DNA from: Beroe forskalii
Lineage: Eukaryota > Ctenophora > Nuda > Beroida > Beroidae
Direction of reading: 5' to 3'
DNA: 64,000 nucleotides
Assembly (NCBI GenBank): GCA_011033025.1
Contig: WFMF01000003.1
Span: forward strand, 1,147,483 to 1,211,482
How positions within the stretch are numbered: the first letter of the stretch is position 1; each line of letters starts with the position of its first letter. The notes beneath the pieces were generated by a model. The model saw only the letters and a program-made list of their open reading frames with translations. It searched no databases and had not been told where the DNA came from. This document shows, in pieces, positions 7,488 to 25,200 of this stretch. A program made the position numbers and the translations under genes.

Positions 7488-10400
7488 ATGGCTCCGATCT
7501 TCGGTTTCTTCGGTAAAGTCGACACCAAAGTGTGGTACTCCCTCATCTTACTGATCCTGCTGGTGTGTCACGTGTGTATCGGAGCCTATGTCTTCCGCAA
7601 ACTCGAAACTGGTTAGTTCTGAAAAGGATGTCGTTGATGATATAGAATATAAAGGCACATTTGTGTGCGATATTATGAGCTGCACAGAAGTACCCAAGCG
7701 CGTCGGATTTCGGAATTAAAACAAAATTTCAAAATACAGAGAAAAGCTCGGTGGATGCCAGCCACCAGCGCATCCAGGAAATCCCCAGAGGCTGAATATC
7801 CCGATATTTATGATTCATTAATAATTGATATTCTTTTCTATTGCAATACGCCTTTCAGGTGAAAAGGCGCTGGCTAAGACGACGGAGACGGCTGATAATG
7901 CTGTTATGTTGAAATATTTCATCAGTAAGTTCTGTTATTTATCCAGAAGATTTTATTACTTCTAGCAGGCTCGTTGAGCCTGCAAATACTCAGCTCACTG
8001 AGCGCTGCCACGCAGCACCTCCTTCGCAAATTTCAAACCCCACAATTCAAATCAACTAAATACTTTTTATCGCATCAAAGAATGCCAATCAGCTCAAAAG
8101 TTACGGAGTAACGTACTCAAAACAGCATTAAACAGAAATGAACGCGCGCGCGCGCAATATGCAACCATAGCAACGCGCGCGCACCTTTTCACCTTTTCAT
8201 TTATTCCATCTCACCTTTTCACCTCACTTTCTCCTCTCCTCTTCTCATCTTTTCGTTTTTCTCCTCACATTTTCCACCCCTCACCCTGTTTTCCCTACTC
8301 CCGCAGTGACTCAAGGGTACCTACGTCCGGACAACCAAACGTACGACGTCCTCAAAGACGAGGACATAGATAAGCTCCTCAGTCTGTACAAGACACGGTG
8401 CTTCAAATCAGATAACAGCGAGACGGACTCCCAGATGTGGAACTTCTGGACTAGTTTGGACTTTGCTTCAACTATAATAACCACTATAGGTGGGTCTAGT
8501 TTGGACTTTGCTTCAACTATAATAACCACTATAGGTGGGTCTAGGGGGGACTTTGCTTCAACTATAATAACCACTATAGGTGGGTCTAGTTTGGACTTTG
8601 CTTCAACTATAATAACCACTATAGATGGGTCTAGTTTGGACTTTGCTTCAACTATAATAACCACTATAGGTGGGTCTAGTTTGATCTTTGAGGGGTTAAT
8701 AACCACTATAATAGGTGGGTCTAGTTCGGACTTTGCTTCAACTATATTGACCACTAATCACTATAGGTGGGTCCATATAGCGTATTATACTATTATTGGC
8801 GCATAATATTTACTAAAGGTTGGTCTATAGGGACTGTGAAGGCAATTTATCACTTTCTCACGAATCAAACCGGATACATCCCTCGGCCTGCACACTTGGA
8901 AAGGACTAAAATAATAAAGTATCCCAAATAGACCCGACGGCCGATTGGCGCGTGTCTACAGTAGGGTGTCAGAATTATTGGCGCGTTTTGAAAATTATGT
9001 GTATTTTGATATGAAATCGCCCATTTTCAATCGTTCATAACTTGACTTCTGATTATCGAAATTACACAATTTAAAAACAGGCTTGTAGAGGAATGTTTCA
9101 GCTTTCTAACGACATCAAATTGACCAAATGAAATTTTTCGGAACTCAAGATACGGTCCCTTAACTTCGAGGCTGTTCTTGACCTTGACTGTTTTTATGAA
9201 GGAGTAAGGTTTTCATGAGTAAATTTTCCGGTCAAAATTTTTTCCAAAAAATGTCTGTCGGAATCAGGGGCAGAAAGCCGAAGCAGAACGCCGAACATAA
9301 GGTCAATATAGCTCATCAGAAAGGGCTATTTCTACTCTAACTAAGGAACCAAAACTTTTCCACATTAACCCAACAGGAAGGTCAAGCGAGGCAATTGAAA
9401 AAAGGTGGTCGAAAAATCGATAATTTGGGCTTTCAACGGGAATATCTCGCTTCCTATTGATAGAAACAGCTTTAAATTTGTACTGAGTTCAAGATTAATG
9501 TATTTTCTTTCGAATGAAATAAAGACGACTTGATTTGATAAATCAGAAGCGAAGATATGGTCACTGCAAGATGTCCGATTGGACAGAATTTTCGTGCAAA
9601 AATAGCACCGCGCCAATAATTATGACACCCTACTGTACGAGTTCGTAATTCAAATATTCCAGGTTACGGAGGCATGGCGCCGAGGACGGACCTGGGCAAG
9701 GTATTTGTGCTCTTCTACATGCTCCCCGGCATGCTCCTCATGATGAGCTACCTCAACATATTCTCCACCTGCATCCTTATACTCCTCAGAAAGGTTTGTT
9801 TTATTCTGGAACATAGTGACGGCATTATCATTGATTCATGTGGCCAGTTAATGGTGTTATGGTTTCGACTCAGAAAGGTTACATTTGTTACGTCATTATC
9901 ATTGATTTGAATGGTCAATAGTTGGTGTAATGGTATCAAGTCTGGCTCATGATCGAAAGATCCCTGGTTCGATTCCCTGCCATTACCGCTTTGAGAAGGG
10001 TGAAAGATTTATCTCTCCCTCTATATACCTATGTGTAGCGACTTTGAGAAATGTAAGTCATTCTGAATTCGCGCAGCACCCTGTACGTGTTTTACTGTTT
10101 AATCAGAATCACGCGCGCACAAATTGTAACCGTGCGGAAATTTCAGAAGACGTTCTCAGAACTCGAGAGATTTGCGTTATTCGCAACAATTCCTGAACTC
10201 AAAATACCACCTCTCTGACTCCACATATTTCAGATAATAAAAATGATCAGAAAAGTAGCGCGGTTCGAGCGGTTGCCGGATCTGCTGGAGCAAGGCATCG
10301 TGTTGCTGATCACTCTGGTCTTCCTCGCCGTCTACCTCGTCCTCATGGCTGTTCTCATGCACCTTAATAACCCTAAAAACGACAGTTTCCCGCAGTCCCT

Positions 10401-11619
10401 CTATTTCTACGTCATTACCATGACGACAGTGGGTGAGTGCGGAGATTGAATCTTGTTTTTTCGCCATTCACCGATATGCGGATGAATTGCTAAATTTTTC
10501 CCGTCAATCATAGTTTGATTAAAAAAAATTGAAGTTGCTCCTATCAGTATCAGTTCGAGTTTTGCTTGGATACTGCCGTAATGTGGCTGTTAAAATTCTC
10601 CTGTGATCTCATAGTAGAGGCAATTTACACCATTAATTTGATCTTTAATCGATTTTCTGATTAGGATTTCCTCACGTATCTCATCCAATATTCAGTATTC
10701 ACCTATATCACCTTTTAATATTTAATTTTACATCACCTTTTTTACTTTTTTCGTTGACATATCGCTCTACTTCACGTCATTGTCATCTTTCACCAGATCT
10801 ATTTTAAGATATCTGTCAACAAACGTCTGTCAAATTATTTGATTTTTAAAAGGAAGATATAAACCTTCAGGATACAATTCAATTTCATCGCGATTGATAT
10901 CTATCCACGATAAAACTCATTTTCATGGACCAATGTGTCAAAGAAAATAACGGCCAACAATTTCCCTTTCCAACTCACAGCTCAAACATTCTTCCCTCCT
11001 CAAGATTTAGTGATTTAACCCTCAGAGACCACTCTTACTCAAATTCTAAGTCACATTCCTACCTCCCCAGGTGTTGGTGATCTAACCCTCATCTTACTCA
11101 CATATTCCCAGGTTTTGGTGATATAACCCTCATAGACCACACCTACCTCGCCCTGATCAGAATCCTGTTCGTGTTCTGCATCGGACTGGTCATGGTGTCC
11201 CTAGTATTCAATGCCATCAGAGAACTAGCAGCAGCTTATCAGAGAAGATTAGTAGAGGTAAGTGGAAACTTGCAGTGTGGTTTTCTAGCGCACAGTTTTC
11301 TAACTTGTTTTCTTGTTTCTTTGTTAGAAAACAAATCAAGCGATGTTCACATGCGCGTAACGGTGCACATGGCACGATTAGCTCTCGAAAATTGCCATTT
11401 TTCACTTAAAATTGAAATGAGAAGTGATTGCCCGGTGCAGCTTGCTCCTAAATATTTGGTTATTCATCATCCTACATCATTATAACCCCGTACTCTCTCC
11501 TCAAGGTGAGTCAGAGAATCGCCATGAAGACACTAGCCGTAGCGAAGCAGCATCGACTCAACCATCATTTGGGAGCCATTGAGAACGGTGGTGATGAGAA
11601 ACTTATCAATGATGACTGA
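7488..11619 (+). CDS. two-pore-domain (K2P) potassium channel, 7 exons
   Basis: Exons: 7488-7611, 7859-7924, 8307-8489, 9663-9793, 10234-10432, 11112-11257, 11506-11619. They join in frame to 963 bases, 320 residues, within the usual K2P size. Family layout is complete: M1 about residues 16-36, an extracellular cap with sequon NQT and a Cys, first pore TTIGYG (122-127), M2 about 138-165, M3 about 188-206, second pore TTVGFGD (from 232), M4 about 246-268, then a short basic tail. Such channels dimerise in the plasma membrane and carry background K+ current. Splice phases match at every junction; introns begin GT and end AG. The start ATG gives a short N-terminus typical of TASK-like members, but I do not assign a subfamily. 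The exons bordering both pore filters have tandem copies of their edges in the flanking introns. No frame break was found. Confidence 0.95.
8451..8775 (+). repeat. 45-bp tandem copies of the K2P pore-1 exon end with its splice donor
   Basis: Copies start at 8451, 8496, 8541, 8586, 8631, 8676 and 8721. Each repeats the last 39 coding bases (SLDFASTIITTIG) plus GTGGGT, the donor. The first copy is the real exon end (donor at 8490). The donor survives in copies 2, 3, 5, 6 and 7, and is lost in copy 4 (GATGGG). Since 45 is 15 codons, the frame stays open to 8806. Confidence 0.92.
8959..9635. mobile_element. non-autonomous Tc1/mariner-like element in K2P intron 3
   Basis: Terminal inverted repeats of about 27 bp begin CAGTAGGGTGTCA on the left, with the matching reverse complement ending TGACACCCTACTG on the right; one internal mismatch is seen. 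The element is flanked by TA on both sides (8957-8958 and 9636-9637). CAGT ends and a TA target duplication are hallmarks of the Tc1/mariner group. The 677-bp body has no transposase ORF, only a short minus-strand ORF (9365-9616) without resemblance to one. Confidence 0.82.
9866..9935 (+). repeat. second copy of the K2P exon 4 donor edge
   Basis: The exon 4 end CTCAGAAAG|GTTTGT (donor at 9794) recurs as CTCAGAAAG|GTTACATTTGT (about 9869-9887), and the following intron sequence (ATTATCATTGATT, then AATGGTGTTATGGT against TTGGTGTAATGGTAT) is also repeated. The period is about 86 bp. Confidence 0.7.
9923..9990 (+). repeat. tRNA-like head with A and B boxes (decayed tRNA or SINE)
   Basis: A perfect RNA polymerase III A box (TGGTGTAATGG, 9923-9933) and B box (GGTTCGATTCC, 9966-9976) stand 43 bases apart, the spacing found in tRNA genes. 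A CTCATGA heptamer between them resembles an anticodon loop with CAT. The T stem has two mismatches and no proper acceptor stem forms, so this is not an intact tRNA. A tRNA-derived SINE head or a tRNA relic fits best. It sits in K2P intron 4. Confidence 0.5.
10992..11150 (+). repeat. tandem copies of the K2P pore-2 exon start with its splice acceptor
   Basis: The true exon start (CCCAG|GTTTTGGTGATATAACCC, exon from 11112) is preceded by CCCAG|GTGTTGGTGATCTAACCC with an intact acceptor (exon-like from 11071), and by a decayed copy near 10999-11035 (CTCAAG|ATTTAGTGATTTAACCC). Use of the 11071 acceptor would run into a stop within about 20 codons. Confidence 0.85.
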
Positions 11620-19734: not shown

Positions 19735-21213
19735 CGTGATCCGGTGCCAAACCTCTCAATATTTTTATTCATCCCGGTCAGTTGCTCGAATAATCCCATA
19801 ACAAAATCCAAATGAAAATAGTGCATATTCAGAAAAATATAATTACCAAATAAAAATGTACATAATAATCATTTCAATTCCTTGCCTTCAAGTTCACTTC
19901 TGACTAACGTCTAAGTCACTAAAATCGTAAGTAGGCCGCGCACTGATAGCTATATAAGCGTTTTGTGTGACCACTCATGTGCTGTGCATTGCATGTGCGA
20001 TATAAAACCCTTATCATCTTTTCGATTTAAGTTTAACGCGCATGACCGTCGGCGTCTGCATCATTATGTTCATTATTCAATTTCAATGAAAATAATACAT
20101 CTCAATAATATTCATATCACCTATTCGTGTCCCCTTCAGCTTCGATAAACTAAGTCAAAATCCTAATTTCGTCACTGATTAATGATTACGCAAACGCTTC
20201 CACGGCCTACATTGCACTCGCAGCACGCCGTAAGAAGCAAGCTAAAATATTGGGCCAACACCGCACTATAATCATAATGTTTTACAACTTTCAATCTATT
20301 AAGCTGAGTTATTTAACAATTAAGATAAACTGTTAGACATCAAACAATAAAAAAGTGAATATTAAATGTTGAAGTACCGTGCCTATATAAAAGAAATCAT
20401 GAGTGTAGTGCAAAAAATAAAATTATTATTATGTAATTTTTGAAGCCTAGGCTAAAATTGTACGGATTAAACGCAAATAATCTAACAAATATTTACACGT
20501 GATTTGAATGTTTCCAGTCAATTTCTTGCCTTTCTCCCGGATTATAACTAATAACTTGATGCAAAATATAAAAGTTAAAATGAAATCCGCTTCTAAACAG
20601 ATCATGCTTGGTGAAAAGCAAACAATTATGCTGTAGTTGCCTTCAATGGTCTCAATTTCGATAATAACGATGGTTCTCTTGGCTCTTGCTTTCCGTACTC
20701 CGAAGCTGTCCCAAGTTTAATGTTTATCCTGTTTTATTTCGTGCTGATTTGCATCTGTACAAAACACAACTGACCAAAATTAGGTCATTTAAGGCCATGT
20801 TCAACTTTTCCAGGCAGTTTTATATAGGTCTTTCTGTCTCTTTACCTTCAACAGCCGGTATATTTCATCATGGATCTTTAACTTTAAGTTTCCATGGTAA
20901 TTATGATAATGATAAACACAAACTGTCTCCAATATTACTGATCACATCGAATCTTGACATTTCACTGACCAACACCATTACACTCAGTTCTCAAACCCCA
21001 GTCGAGAATATCAAATATGAGAATATTGTGTCATGTAGCGTTGCTCGCGTAAAGTAAACATGGAAATATCCAAGCTGCAGCCCTGCCTGGAAGTGGATCG
21101 ATGTGGACAGAAACCATTTTAGCCACACTAGCCACAGCCCTGGACAGAGACCATTTGGTGAGAGAGAATATTAAAACCAGACTGCTTGATCCACCTTGAC
21201 TACTCTTGGATCT

Positions 21214-22275
21214 TCAGATCCACTCCTCAGTGACAGTAGCGTGAATAAGGTGCATGTGATGATCTAGACTCTGTTCCCTAGCTATTCTACCGTTGTCAGG
21301 CGTTGTCCCCTCCTCCGAAATGCTGCTGGTCGCACTGGGCGGCACGTGGCATAACCTGTCCGTTGCCTCGTTGTTGTCATTCGCCGTGTTGTCATGCGCG
21401 TTGTCATGGAGATGTGCCGTGTTGTCATGACGACTTGACGCTGCAGTTCCCAGGGAGGACGGAGTAGAACTGGAAGACGCAGAGGGTTGATCCCCACTGC
21501 CATGAGACCGGGAGATGGGTGACGGTGTGTTGGTGACGGATATCTGACGCTTAACAATCGGAGACGATATTATCCGTGCGGGCGAAGATGAACGGTTAAA
21601 CCGTCTTTGGTTGGCCGTATCGTCGCTAGATTTCCGAACACTCCCGGTTGCTTTGAGGCCGAAGGGTCGAGTGGGGGAGCTGAGCAGGTCAGTTCCTTCG
21701 GCGTAGTCCATGTCTGACTCGAGGAGGGCCTCGTTGTAGGCTGCTATCAGCGCGTAATGTTCTCGTGAACTGTTGCTGTCCCCAGCGATGTTGAGGTGAG
21801 ATCAGAGAGATCAGAGTGAGATCAGAGGCAGGGGTTATCCGGGGTCAGTCGCTACTAGAGAGCAGGGATTAACACCCGGCTAAAGAAAAGAATAGAAATC
21901 GGTAATTTGTGAGCCAAAAATACCATAGGCCATTATAGACCCGTATGTCACTTTGGCGGTGGCCTGGCTCTTGGCCAAAGCGACATACGGATCTATGCCG
22001 ATTTTCGACTTACACAAAACCAATAAACGGGATCTACATACTGCACTACACAGTACACAGTCCATCACAATCTTTATCTACTACAATCTACTTTTAGCCA
22101 CATCTCATTACCAGCGATGTTGAGTTCGTTGTTCCACTCCTCTGCCTGCTGTTCCAGCACCCTACTCTCCTCCCTGCTCTTCTTGATCGTTTTACTCGTT
22201 AACTTAGCAGTGTAGTTACCCAGCTTCTCTTCGATGTCACGCTGACTCTTCTTGCAGGACTTGTACGTGTCGTAC
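21214..22275 (-). other. PDE2 extended C-terminal tail (exons 23-24)
   Basis: After the catalytic domain, exon 23 encodes a charged, probably coiled segment ([36 protein letters not shown]), and exon 24 a low-complexity tail of about 187 residues rich in Ser/Thr/Pro, followed by a run of repeats of HDN and NDNN, ending TVTEEWI. Human PDE2A has only a short tail here. The exon 22/23 and 23/24 junctions are each off by one base when canonical sites are used. A coding function is supported by the long open frame and the in-frame join after YDTYKSC. Confidence 0.75.
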
Positions 22276-25200
22276 TTGCGAGGGAAAATAGTAGTTAAGA
22301 GGGAAGTTTAGGGTGGTTTAGAGGGTAGTTTAGGGATAGTTTCATAGTTTAGAGGGTAGGTAGGGTAGGTAAGGTCTTTATCTAAAACAGAGCGTGCCTT
22401 AGCTAGGCATAACTACTTTACTACGAAACAACCCGAGAAAAGTCATTTCGAGCATGGAGATTGAACTTGAAGGACCTTTTTCAAAATTTCAAACTTTCAA
22501 ATCCTCATCAACAGGCAGATAAAGAATAAACCCTGGATCCCTAACTCACTTGACGCAGTTGTGGTTTTCCTCCTGGTTGTGTTTAATAGAAATACTCTCC
22601 CATACTATCCGGTTCACCTCCAGCTGATCCACCACCGTCTGAACTGGTGGCAGCAGTTCAGCTAGCAGGTTGTAGAGTGGAGCTGCTATGAAGTCAGTGA
22701 ACTTGATTTGGAGCGAGGGGATGCACGCTTTCTTCCGGTCGTTTTGTTGGAGGGGAGTGCGGCCCAGCTCCTTTTCCATGTCACCTGAAATACATGGTTT
22801 GATAGCTGATATGAAATATATGGTTTGATATTGGTGGATTAATCATAAAGTCAACTAAATTTTTTTGTATCCGAGCCCTATTTCCAAGTCACCTGAAAGT
22901 GAAATATATGGTTTGATGTCGGGGGTATTTGATTTTTGGTGCACCCAAGCTCTTTATCCATGTAACCTGCAAATTATGGTTTGATTTATGGTCGATTGAT
23001 TGTACTTGATTTTTTGTGCGTCCGAGCTCTTTATCCATGCCACCTGAATATGGTTTAATACTTGTAAGACTAATGGGTACTTGATTTATCCTTCATACTT
23101 CCATAATCCGGAAATCTTCTGAAGCCTCGGTGTTCCACACCTTTGCCTAATCGAAAATTAAAGATCTAACATCAAGCCATGAGAACTTTGCAGTCGAAAC
23201 CAGGAAAAGCGTTGCAGCTGCTCTAACCTACCTCGGTAATGGCATGTGTGCAGTTTGCATTGAATTTCCAAGAATATCCAACATATCCAAGAATATCCCT
23301 AAGATAGCATTTACCACTTTCCTTCCGTCAATGGTCCAATGATCATGGGCAACCTATAAACACCTAGCATAAAGTGGTGAATTCATGTTCCGGTTCAGAA
23401 TTATATTCTAGGGCTGCGTGCAGTATGAATCATCATTTATTCAGCTTGAGAGCTTTTCAAAAGAATGAAATGGGGATTGGAGCATCAAAATTAACGAAAA
23501 TTCAACTTACCCTTGGAGAAGAAGAATTAGATTAGCTATGATAAACATTAACTTACCATCTGATGAGAATTGGGAGTAGAAAATATGACCCATGTTCCCT
23601 TACCTTCTGAGAAGAATTCGGAGTAGATATGATCCATATTCCCTTACCTTCTGACAAGAATTCACTAATCCAGAGTAGATATGATTTCTTACCTTCTGAG
23701 AAGAACTCGGAGTAGATATGATCCCTTACCTTCTGAGAAGAACTCTGAGTAGATATGATCCCTTACCTTCTGAGAAGAACTCTGAGTAGATATGACCCAT
23801 GTTGCCTTACCTTCTGAGAAGAACTCTGAGTAGATATGATCCCGCACGATAACAGAACTCTCCTCAAACATCTTGACGTTTATTGACAGATCGGAGGAGG
23901 TGATGAGGAGGGATTGGAGGAGGAAGTGGTGATGGGGTTGGAGTAGTCGTACCCGTTTACTGACATCTCCTTCTGCTGACTGATTATCCTACGGGAGGAG
24001 AGGGAGGGTTTGTAACATCGATGGTTGCGTGATGGATAAGATTGACTTTGGGGATAGGACAGCCAAAAGAGGGTTCAGATAACTAACAAAATAGAGTGAA
24101 CTCCTGAAAAGTAAAAGATTTGAAATAAGCTCTGCGATTGATCTATATGTACCTAAGATGATGGGCGAGGTCCGTAGCTAAGATAGTTTTTTGGATGTTG
24201 TCCAGACAGTTTCTGTAGTCTTCTGTCTCCAAACTGAGGGGATTAGAGAATGTTCATACCATACCATCAATCCATTAATCAATATAAACCAACACATCGA
24301 AATATTTTGGCAAATTTCCAATGTTTCCATTCAGTCTCACGCCGGCACTCATGAATCACAATGACAAATAATAATAATTTTAAATTTCGTCCAACCCACG
24401 TTTCCATGATGTTACACCCTGACGTGTTGAGAATACAGAATGTTTGAGCGAAGTGGTGCCTCTCCATTACACTTCCTTCTGAGCTGTACAGGCACGCTAA
24501 CACCGACCTGAAAATAGCATCAAAATGAGTTATCTGATTTAATCAATTGAGTTTCACAAAATTTTACTTAATTTTTCTTACAATTTTTTAAAAAATTAAC
24601 TAATCATCTTCTTCGTTCAGGTAGGATGTAATTATGAGACATGCGTAACCATGACAACGCCACGCCATGTGCGCGTTACCACGGCAACGCTGTACCACTC
24701 ACGTGAGCAGCGCGTTAAAGATCACGCGTTACAGATCACGCGCCGCTGCTCACGCGTTACAAGTACGACTGCGCACCTGCTAGCCACCTGAAAGGCATTG
24801 GTAGTCCCCCGGTGGTCGAGATCGTGGCAGAAGCACGCGATGAGCATGGCGAGGGTCTCTATGTCAGTGAGGTACTTGGTGATGTCCACTACTTTGCAGA
24901 TGGAGTAGAAGAAGTGACCGACGCAGAAGGCGTGCATCCAGTTGTGATAGGGCGGGTCTCGGTAACTGGAGAATGGTGATTTACTGAATTGAATTTATTC
25001 AGAATGAAAACTACATTTTTCAAGTCAACATGTCAAGTTGAAATGGGTTATGAGGGATAAAATGGGGTAAAGATTTCGACATAATTTTCTATCATCAAAT
25101 GGAAAATGAATAAAAATAATTAAATTACGCAGCACGGATCAATATCTCAAACTGAAGTCTGAAACTTAACCCCGTTTGACCATGAGTAAGAACCTAAGTA

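Follow-up and report, generated by a model that had tools for sequence, protein, structure and literature searches.

In the 64,000-nt stretch of Beroe forskalii DNA analysed here (the window), one intron of a PDE2 gene carries multiple copies of both of its exon edges. This anatomy is real and recurs at several other genes of the genome; it has the look of ordinary local duplication that splicing puts up with, not of a novel process. In the reading we prefer, with a probability of roughly 0.75, local duplications that straddle a splice junction are neutral or slightly costly, and they persist since splicing at the site next to the exon yields the same mRNA as before.

The PDE2 gene is situated on the minus strand of the window. 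Among the best 120 of 1319 protein matches its closest relatives were P0001 (78% identical over its best-aligned segment) and P0006 (69%); the remaining ones were 48–55% identical. The intron (23810–22785, 1,026 bp) separates two exons delineated from ORFs and splice sites, one at 23811..23988 (exon 21 of the first-pass annotation) and one at 22550..22784 (its exon 22, starting with DMEKELGRT). Peptides ...EFFSEG and DMEKELG... flank the intron; the G codon is split as G/GT (slash, splice junction) and yields a single G in the peptide. Across this junction, where the exon 21 peptide matches P0006, the relative reads EFFSEGDMEKQLGR, without an insert.

The authentic donor, GAAG/GTAAGG, is located at 23810. 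Seven extra copies of the exon end follow, with GT at 23766, 23729, 23692, 23647, 23603, 23556 and 23510, giving eight GTAAG donors confined to the first ∼300 bases of the intron (donor array, 23505..23847, minus strand; TRF array, 23552–23839). Identity of the copies to the exon edge ranges from 1.00 down to 0.73. The tandem unit lies across the donor, combines ∼30 exonic with 7 intronic bases and is present in eight copies from 23810 to 23510, which is the structure of an exon–intron-boundary minisatellite. At the opposite end, upstream of the authentic acceptor CAG/GTGACATGG (exon start 22784), three extra copies of CAG plus exon start begin at 23043, 22966 and 22892 (22784..23057, minus strand). 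These are acceptor-spanning duplications, in which intron end and exon start are repeated upstream of the authentic exon; they are 71–79% identical to the authentic edge and confined to the last ∼260 bases of the intron. A separate repeat search recovered the same four acceptor places. All copies, donor and acceptor, are inside one already existing intron.

Junctions were scored by comparing a 40-base junction window with the adjacent 1 kb, which for PDE2 is nearly the whole intron. The PDE2 donor scored 72 against 20.1 ± 2.7 in 60 dinucleotide shuffles (z = 19), and the acceptor 46 against 18.7 ± 2.8 (z = 9.7); in both cases 0/60 shuffles scored as high. Together with the reading of individual copies, these scores confirm what the first-pass annotation had noticed, that both exon edges are multiplied within one intron, with about eight donors and about four acceptors (counts that include the authentic site). 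In the donor array identity to the exon drops with distance from it (Spearman −0.87); in the acceptor array the gradient is reversed.

A second copy of the 3′ part of the gene was found on another contig (C132:4–1991), 81–86% identical to window positions 20955–22976. The homology stops within the same PDE2 intron, and a PF00233 search detected no other PDE exons on C132. Between the two copies exon 22 has 16 synonymous and 0 nonsynonymous differences, and exon 23 has 3 and 0, respectively. The acceptor copies at 22966 and 22892 have counterparts on C132; given the 16 synonymous differences in the adjoining exon, these acceptor copies are old. Ten bases of the acceptor copy at −108, including its CAG, are missing from C132, which counts against a need for that acceptor.

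Two other features of the gene were observed. In the last PDE2 intron (window 21783–21795, minus strand) there is no AG where C132 has TTGCAG/GGGACAG; instead, the last 13 bases of the upstream exon are joined directly to the start of the downstream exon, as in a spliced junction. Conversion by a cDNA or a spliced transcript could have left such a segment, and so could coincidence. Near 23935 and 25169 (minus strand) PDE2 exons that are conserved elsewhere along their length appear to lack one base of a homopolymer (CCCC and GGGG), which breaks the frame or a splice site; this may be either assembly error or decay.

A K2P gene on the plus strand of the window shows similar arrays at two junctions. 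The donor array (8451..8830; exon end ...TIITTIG) has a 45-bp unit and eight sites, at 8490, 8535, 8580, 8625, 8670, 8715, 8767 and 8819; GT is kept in 7/8 (lost at 8625), and identity to the exon drops with distance (Spearman −0.89). At the acceptor (10990..11140; authentic exon start 11112) there are two extra copies, at 11004, where AG is lost, and at 11071. Donor sites at +45, +90, +135 (the one without GT), +180 and +225 are in frame and would add 15-residue repeats, most of which carry the TIITTIG sequence of the filter; sites +277 and +329 do not keep the frame. Such extra repeats would presumably interrupt the selectivity filter.

Of 34 window junctions typed, one was absent from the sequence and 33 were scored. 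Four of these (12%) carry copies, two in PDE2 (donor and acceptor) and two in K2P (donor at 8490, acceptor at 11112). Since such cases were the ground for choosing the window, its 12% is an ascertained rate. Independent loci were fetched by protein families PF00520, PF00233 and PF00118. The 121 exon matches have 242 edges, 103 of them with a confident splice site and enough flank (102 unique). A strong junction-spanning copy was detected at three of the 102 junctions (2.9%), on contigs C300, C456 and C307. All three are in the PDE family, to which the PDE2 gene of the original observation also belongs: 3/33 in PF00233 loci versus 0/69 in ion-channel and chaperonin loci (0/27 and 0/18 in two PF00520 sets, 0/24 in PF00118 loci). 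One further junction, on C172 (L048), scored 34, below the threshold; with a threshold of 34 the count becomes 4/102 (P 0.07–0.27).

In C300, a gene that we take to be PDE1-like, the donor following ...LMEEFFIQ has five further copies. By eye, this array and the PDE2 donor array of the window are at the same protein position within one base. The trend of identity with distance is not significant in C300, and its copy at +507 reads GTGGGT where the exon edge has GTTACT. The PDE acceptor on C456 has nine further copies with a 38–39-bp unit and no gradient of identity with distance. AG is kept in all nine as found by alignment; this alignment was separate from the CAG-containing pattern that produced the list of ten sites. 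The PDE donor on C307 has one further copy, 147 bases away. The C172 junction, the one among the 102 that is just below threshold, has a 24-bp donor unit present three times. Exon-derived copies read out at four loci (L035, L036, L038 and L048) all span a junction; for the L036 donor the script call fell 61 bases inside the array, and the correct junction was placed manually. Overlapping duplicates flagged at L037 and L047 were not counted as exon-edge copies, and those flagged at L059 and L071 were taken only as far as the background estimate.

Intronic minisatellites at L034 and L059 start at or beside a splice site, with exon sequence not clearly included. Inverted gene copies were seen within single contigs, in C307 (197–201 kb on the plus strand, 249–250 kb on the minus strand) and in C558 (175–178 kb plus, 214–217 kb minus); possibly these are hairpin joins or haplotype misassemblies.

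The background for these counts is the frequency of nearby copies on one side of arbitrary noncoding positions, 0.9–2.1% by group of loci (0.9–1.0% in L004–33, 1.8–2.1% in L034–49, 1.3–1.7% in L050–79, 1.3–1.5% in all), with the reservation that some loci overlap and neighbouring positions are not independent. In noncoding DNA of the window's genes the rate is 1.9%. A looser null, in which every neighbouring copy on the chosen side counts and the threshold is unchanged, gives 6.7–7.8% in introns of window genes and 11% in multi-exon loci; it counts the interiors of arrays and so overstates the expectation, therefore the one-sided null was used. Since one-sided copies already occur at this frequency, the rate at independent junctions does not clearly exceed the repeat density of introns: 3/102 is not distinguishable from 1.3–2.1% (P 0.15–0.36). 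The window alone (4/33) is above the null (P 0.001–0.005), as is the pooled count of 7/135 (P 0.002–0.024); in both values the window part is ascertained. The sample of 102 junctions is compatible with a several-fold genome-wide excess and with background alike, and neither shows nor excludes such an excess.

Motif counts were also obtained. Genome-wide, triplets of AGGTAAG at 22–52 base spacing number 1567, versus 509 for the reversed motif GAATGGA, while single AGGTAAG is the rarer of the two (26,844 versus 32,401); both triplet counts are inflated, as the matches listed concentrate in a few long satellites. When triplet arrays on contigs C1–C121 were counted by eye among the matches listed, AGGTAAG had 9 and the control 6 (P = 0.19), a comparison of few arrays. 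AGGTAAG occurs in 1/115 TRF arrays (353 kb) versus 0.56 on average for its anagrams, a comparison with almost no power. Splice cores of diverged copies have 4 mismatches where 11.8 are expected (P = 0.0035), a value inflated by alignment trimming and by non-independence of the copies.

The first-pass annotation had suggested tandem growth of exon–intron boundaries as a general process in this genome. That part of the suggestion which concerns the copies themselves holds: they span boundaries, are local, are mostly head to tail and recur. Specificity for boundaries did not emerge, with 3/102 near background and PDE genes as the only family affected among the independent loci, and its own yardstick, repeats at splice sites against intron repeat density, gave no distinguishable excess in those loci.

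The preferred reading, local duplication tolerated by splicing, would work as follows. Short local duplications with spacings of about 24–150 bp would arise throughout the noncoding DNA of this genome, probably in most cases by slippage or unequal exchange. If a unit straddled a splice junction, a spare exon edge, donor or acceptor included, would be added to the intron. The spliceosome would be expected to stay with the exon-adjacent site; the mRNA would then be unchanged, so that a near-neutral or slightly costly duplication could persist and expand. Selection would hold the exon copy intact while spare copies drift, and the copies would thus come to resemble exon edges that erode toward the intron interior. 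Any duplications wholly within an exon would alter the protein and be removed, so that the junction-spanning ones would remain visible.

Several observations are in line with this reading: P0006 has no insert at the junction, the independent rate fits background, the copies are local and, everywhere except in C307, head to tail, identity to the exon drops with distance in the PDE2 and K2P donor arrays, the exon-derived copies read out at four loci all span a junction, acceptor copies have persisted in the diverged C132 copy, the sister of the C307 gene shows an empty site, and human CBS has the same anatomy. Others count against it, namely the window and pooled counts, the concentration in PDE-family loci, the shared array position of C300 and PDE2, the conservation of splice cores (a biased measure) and the distance gradient, which is missing from C456, runs the other way in the PDE2 acceptor array and falls short of significance in C300. 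As the origin of the PDE2 units, a dispersed transposon or introner was considered and rejected: a search of the 216-Mb assembly with the 1,439-bp region, ignoring simple repeats and very common words, returned only the region itself and one partial gene copy, and the units therefore do not look dispersed.

Exon–intron edges could instead be mutational hot spots, with a master at the exon kept intact by purifying selection, repeated duplication that yields fresh copies and introns growing inward from their ends. The excess in the window and in the pooled sample speaks for this, as do the decay of identity in two donor arrays, the involvement of both ends of one PDE2 intron and the threefold-repeated AGGTAAG, abundant though the single motif is rarer. 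We nevertheless consider hot spots unlikely, as the independent junctions do not exceed the null, nothing was detected at the 69 junctions outside the PDE family, and neither the by-eye array count nor the TRF comparison separates AGGTAAG from its controls.

A related idea, to which we give a slightly lower chance, makes exon edges protected seeds of intron growth: as selection keeps the exon copy perfect, duplication would restart repeatedly at the edge and push older exon-edge fossils inward, and copies with AG/GT would perhaps be tolerated through a recursive-splicing ratchet, in which splicing to such a copy would restore a donor available for a further round of splicing. This idea agrees with the window excess, with the 3/33 among PDE-family loci and with the decay gradients.

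Retention of the copies as working alternative or redundant splice sites, providing in-frame isoforms or robustness, seems quite improbable. In its favour, GTAAG is intact in all eight PDE2 donors, GT in 7/8 K2P donors and AG in the nine aligned extra C456 acceptors; four K2P donors (+45, +90, +180 and +225) have open frames adding 15-residue repeats, and the PDE2 donor at +81 is open as well. Yet among the 32 PDE2 donor–acceptor pairs just two keep the frame, namely the exon-adjacent pair and the combination of donor +81 and the authentic acceptor, and the other 30 contain a stop. The first-pass statement that copies still encode the conserved peptides is consequently true only locally, since splicing in most of the copies would introduce stops. 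None of the nine distal C456 acceptors shares the frame of the authentic one, the CAG at −108 is missing on C132, and in K2P one donor copy has lost its GT and one acceptor copy its AG, besides the presumed interruption of the filter. The core-conservation test is biased by trimming, and the +507 copy of C300 departs from its exon edge. Selection for redundant splice sites, as proposed at first pass, finds no support, given the 30/32 pairs with stops and the loss on C132.

Some cases might be insertions that duplicated their target, not slippage, C307 being the candidate; we give this explanation very little weight. On C307 (248200–251020, minus strand; L038) a 45-base donor edge is directly repeated across the junction around ∼100 unrelated bases, a stretch whose translation, we believe, resembles a piece of LINE RNase H. 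By eye, the sister gene on the same contig (L037) has a single donor edge and no such stretch; after its donor edge comes sequence like that after the partner's second copy, which makes it an empty site. C307 took a different route from the other arrays, where no foreign sequence was recognized between copies. That the extra copies are assembly artefacts is hardly credible: the one-base homopolymer errors apparent in two exons of PDE2 point to some noise in the assembly, but the copies differ by substitutions and in several spacings, two acceptor copies are matched on another contig (about 81% identical there), and similar copies occur on C300, C456, C307 and C172 and in K2P.

Comparable structures are known in human genes. 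A 31-bp VNTR of CBS, c.1444_1467+7(16_21), has 16–21 copies at the exon 13–intron 13 boundary, with units differing by substitutions (PMC2630376, PMC1395315); as we read the variant name, the unit has 24 exonic and 7 intronic bases. More repeats are associated with lower enzyme activity, in a source where the boundary repeat is described as non-coding (PMC5188458). The PDE2 donor unit and its eight copies are alike in design; the CBS repeat is polymorphic in people, whereas the PDE2 array is known from one assembly and its outer units are diverged. A junction-spanning duplication in CBS creates two close splice sites, with normal mRNA since one of them is strongly favoured (PMC2630376). This acceptor-spanning duplication (844ins68 type) has one extra copy, in contrast to the three old, diverged copies of PDE2. 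Both the donor and the acceptor kind thus have a published precedent in human CBS, as polymorphisms.

In genes of human segmental duplications, tandem repeats at exon–intron boundaries were described in 162 alignments, with 27 intron modifications after manual inspection (PMC2812944); there the repeats alter intron structure between recent paralogs, whereas PDE2 keeps its frame if the exon-adjacent sites are used. Duplication across an intron–exon boundary can also supply extra splice signals, and duplication has been studied as a way in which introns are gained (PMC4974935, PMC3443670, PMC2891723). Unlike that route, the potato RdRp case included, the PDE2 copies are inside an existing intron, and no new intron was seen. 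A full-text literature search on ctenophores, with the Hormiphora genome paper among its results, listed no description of such arrays, which is not proof that none has been published.

Junction arrays of this kind are natural experiments in splice-site choice, in which eight donors or ten acceptors compete and the protein tells the winner. They also present a concrete route of intron lengthening, with introns carrying fossils of exon edges. If a several-fold genome-wide excess is true, exon edges would become a recognized source of intron growth; at background rates, the arrays would be a neat illustration of how selection filters duplications.
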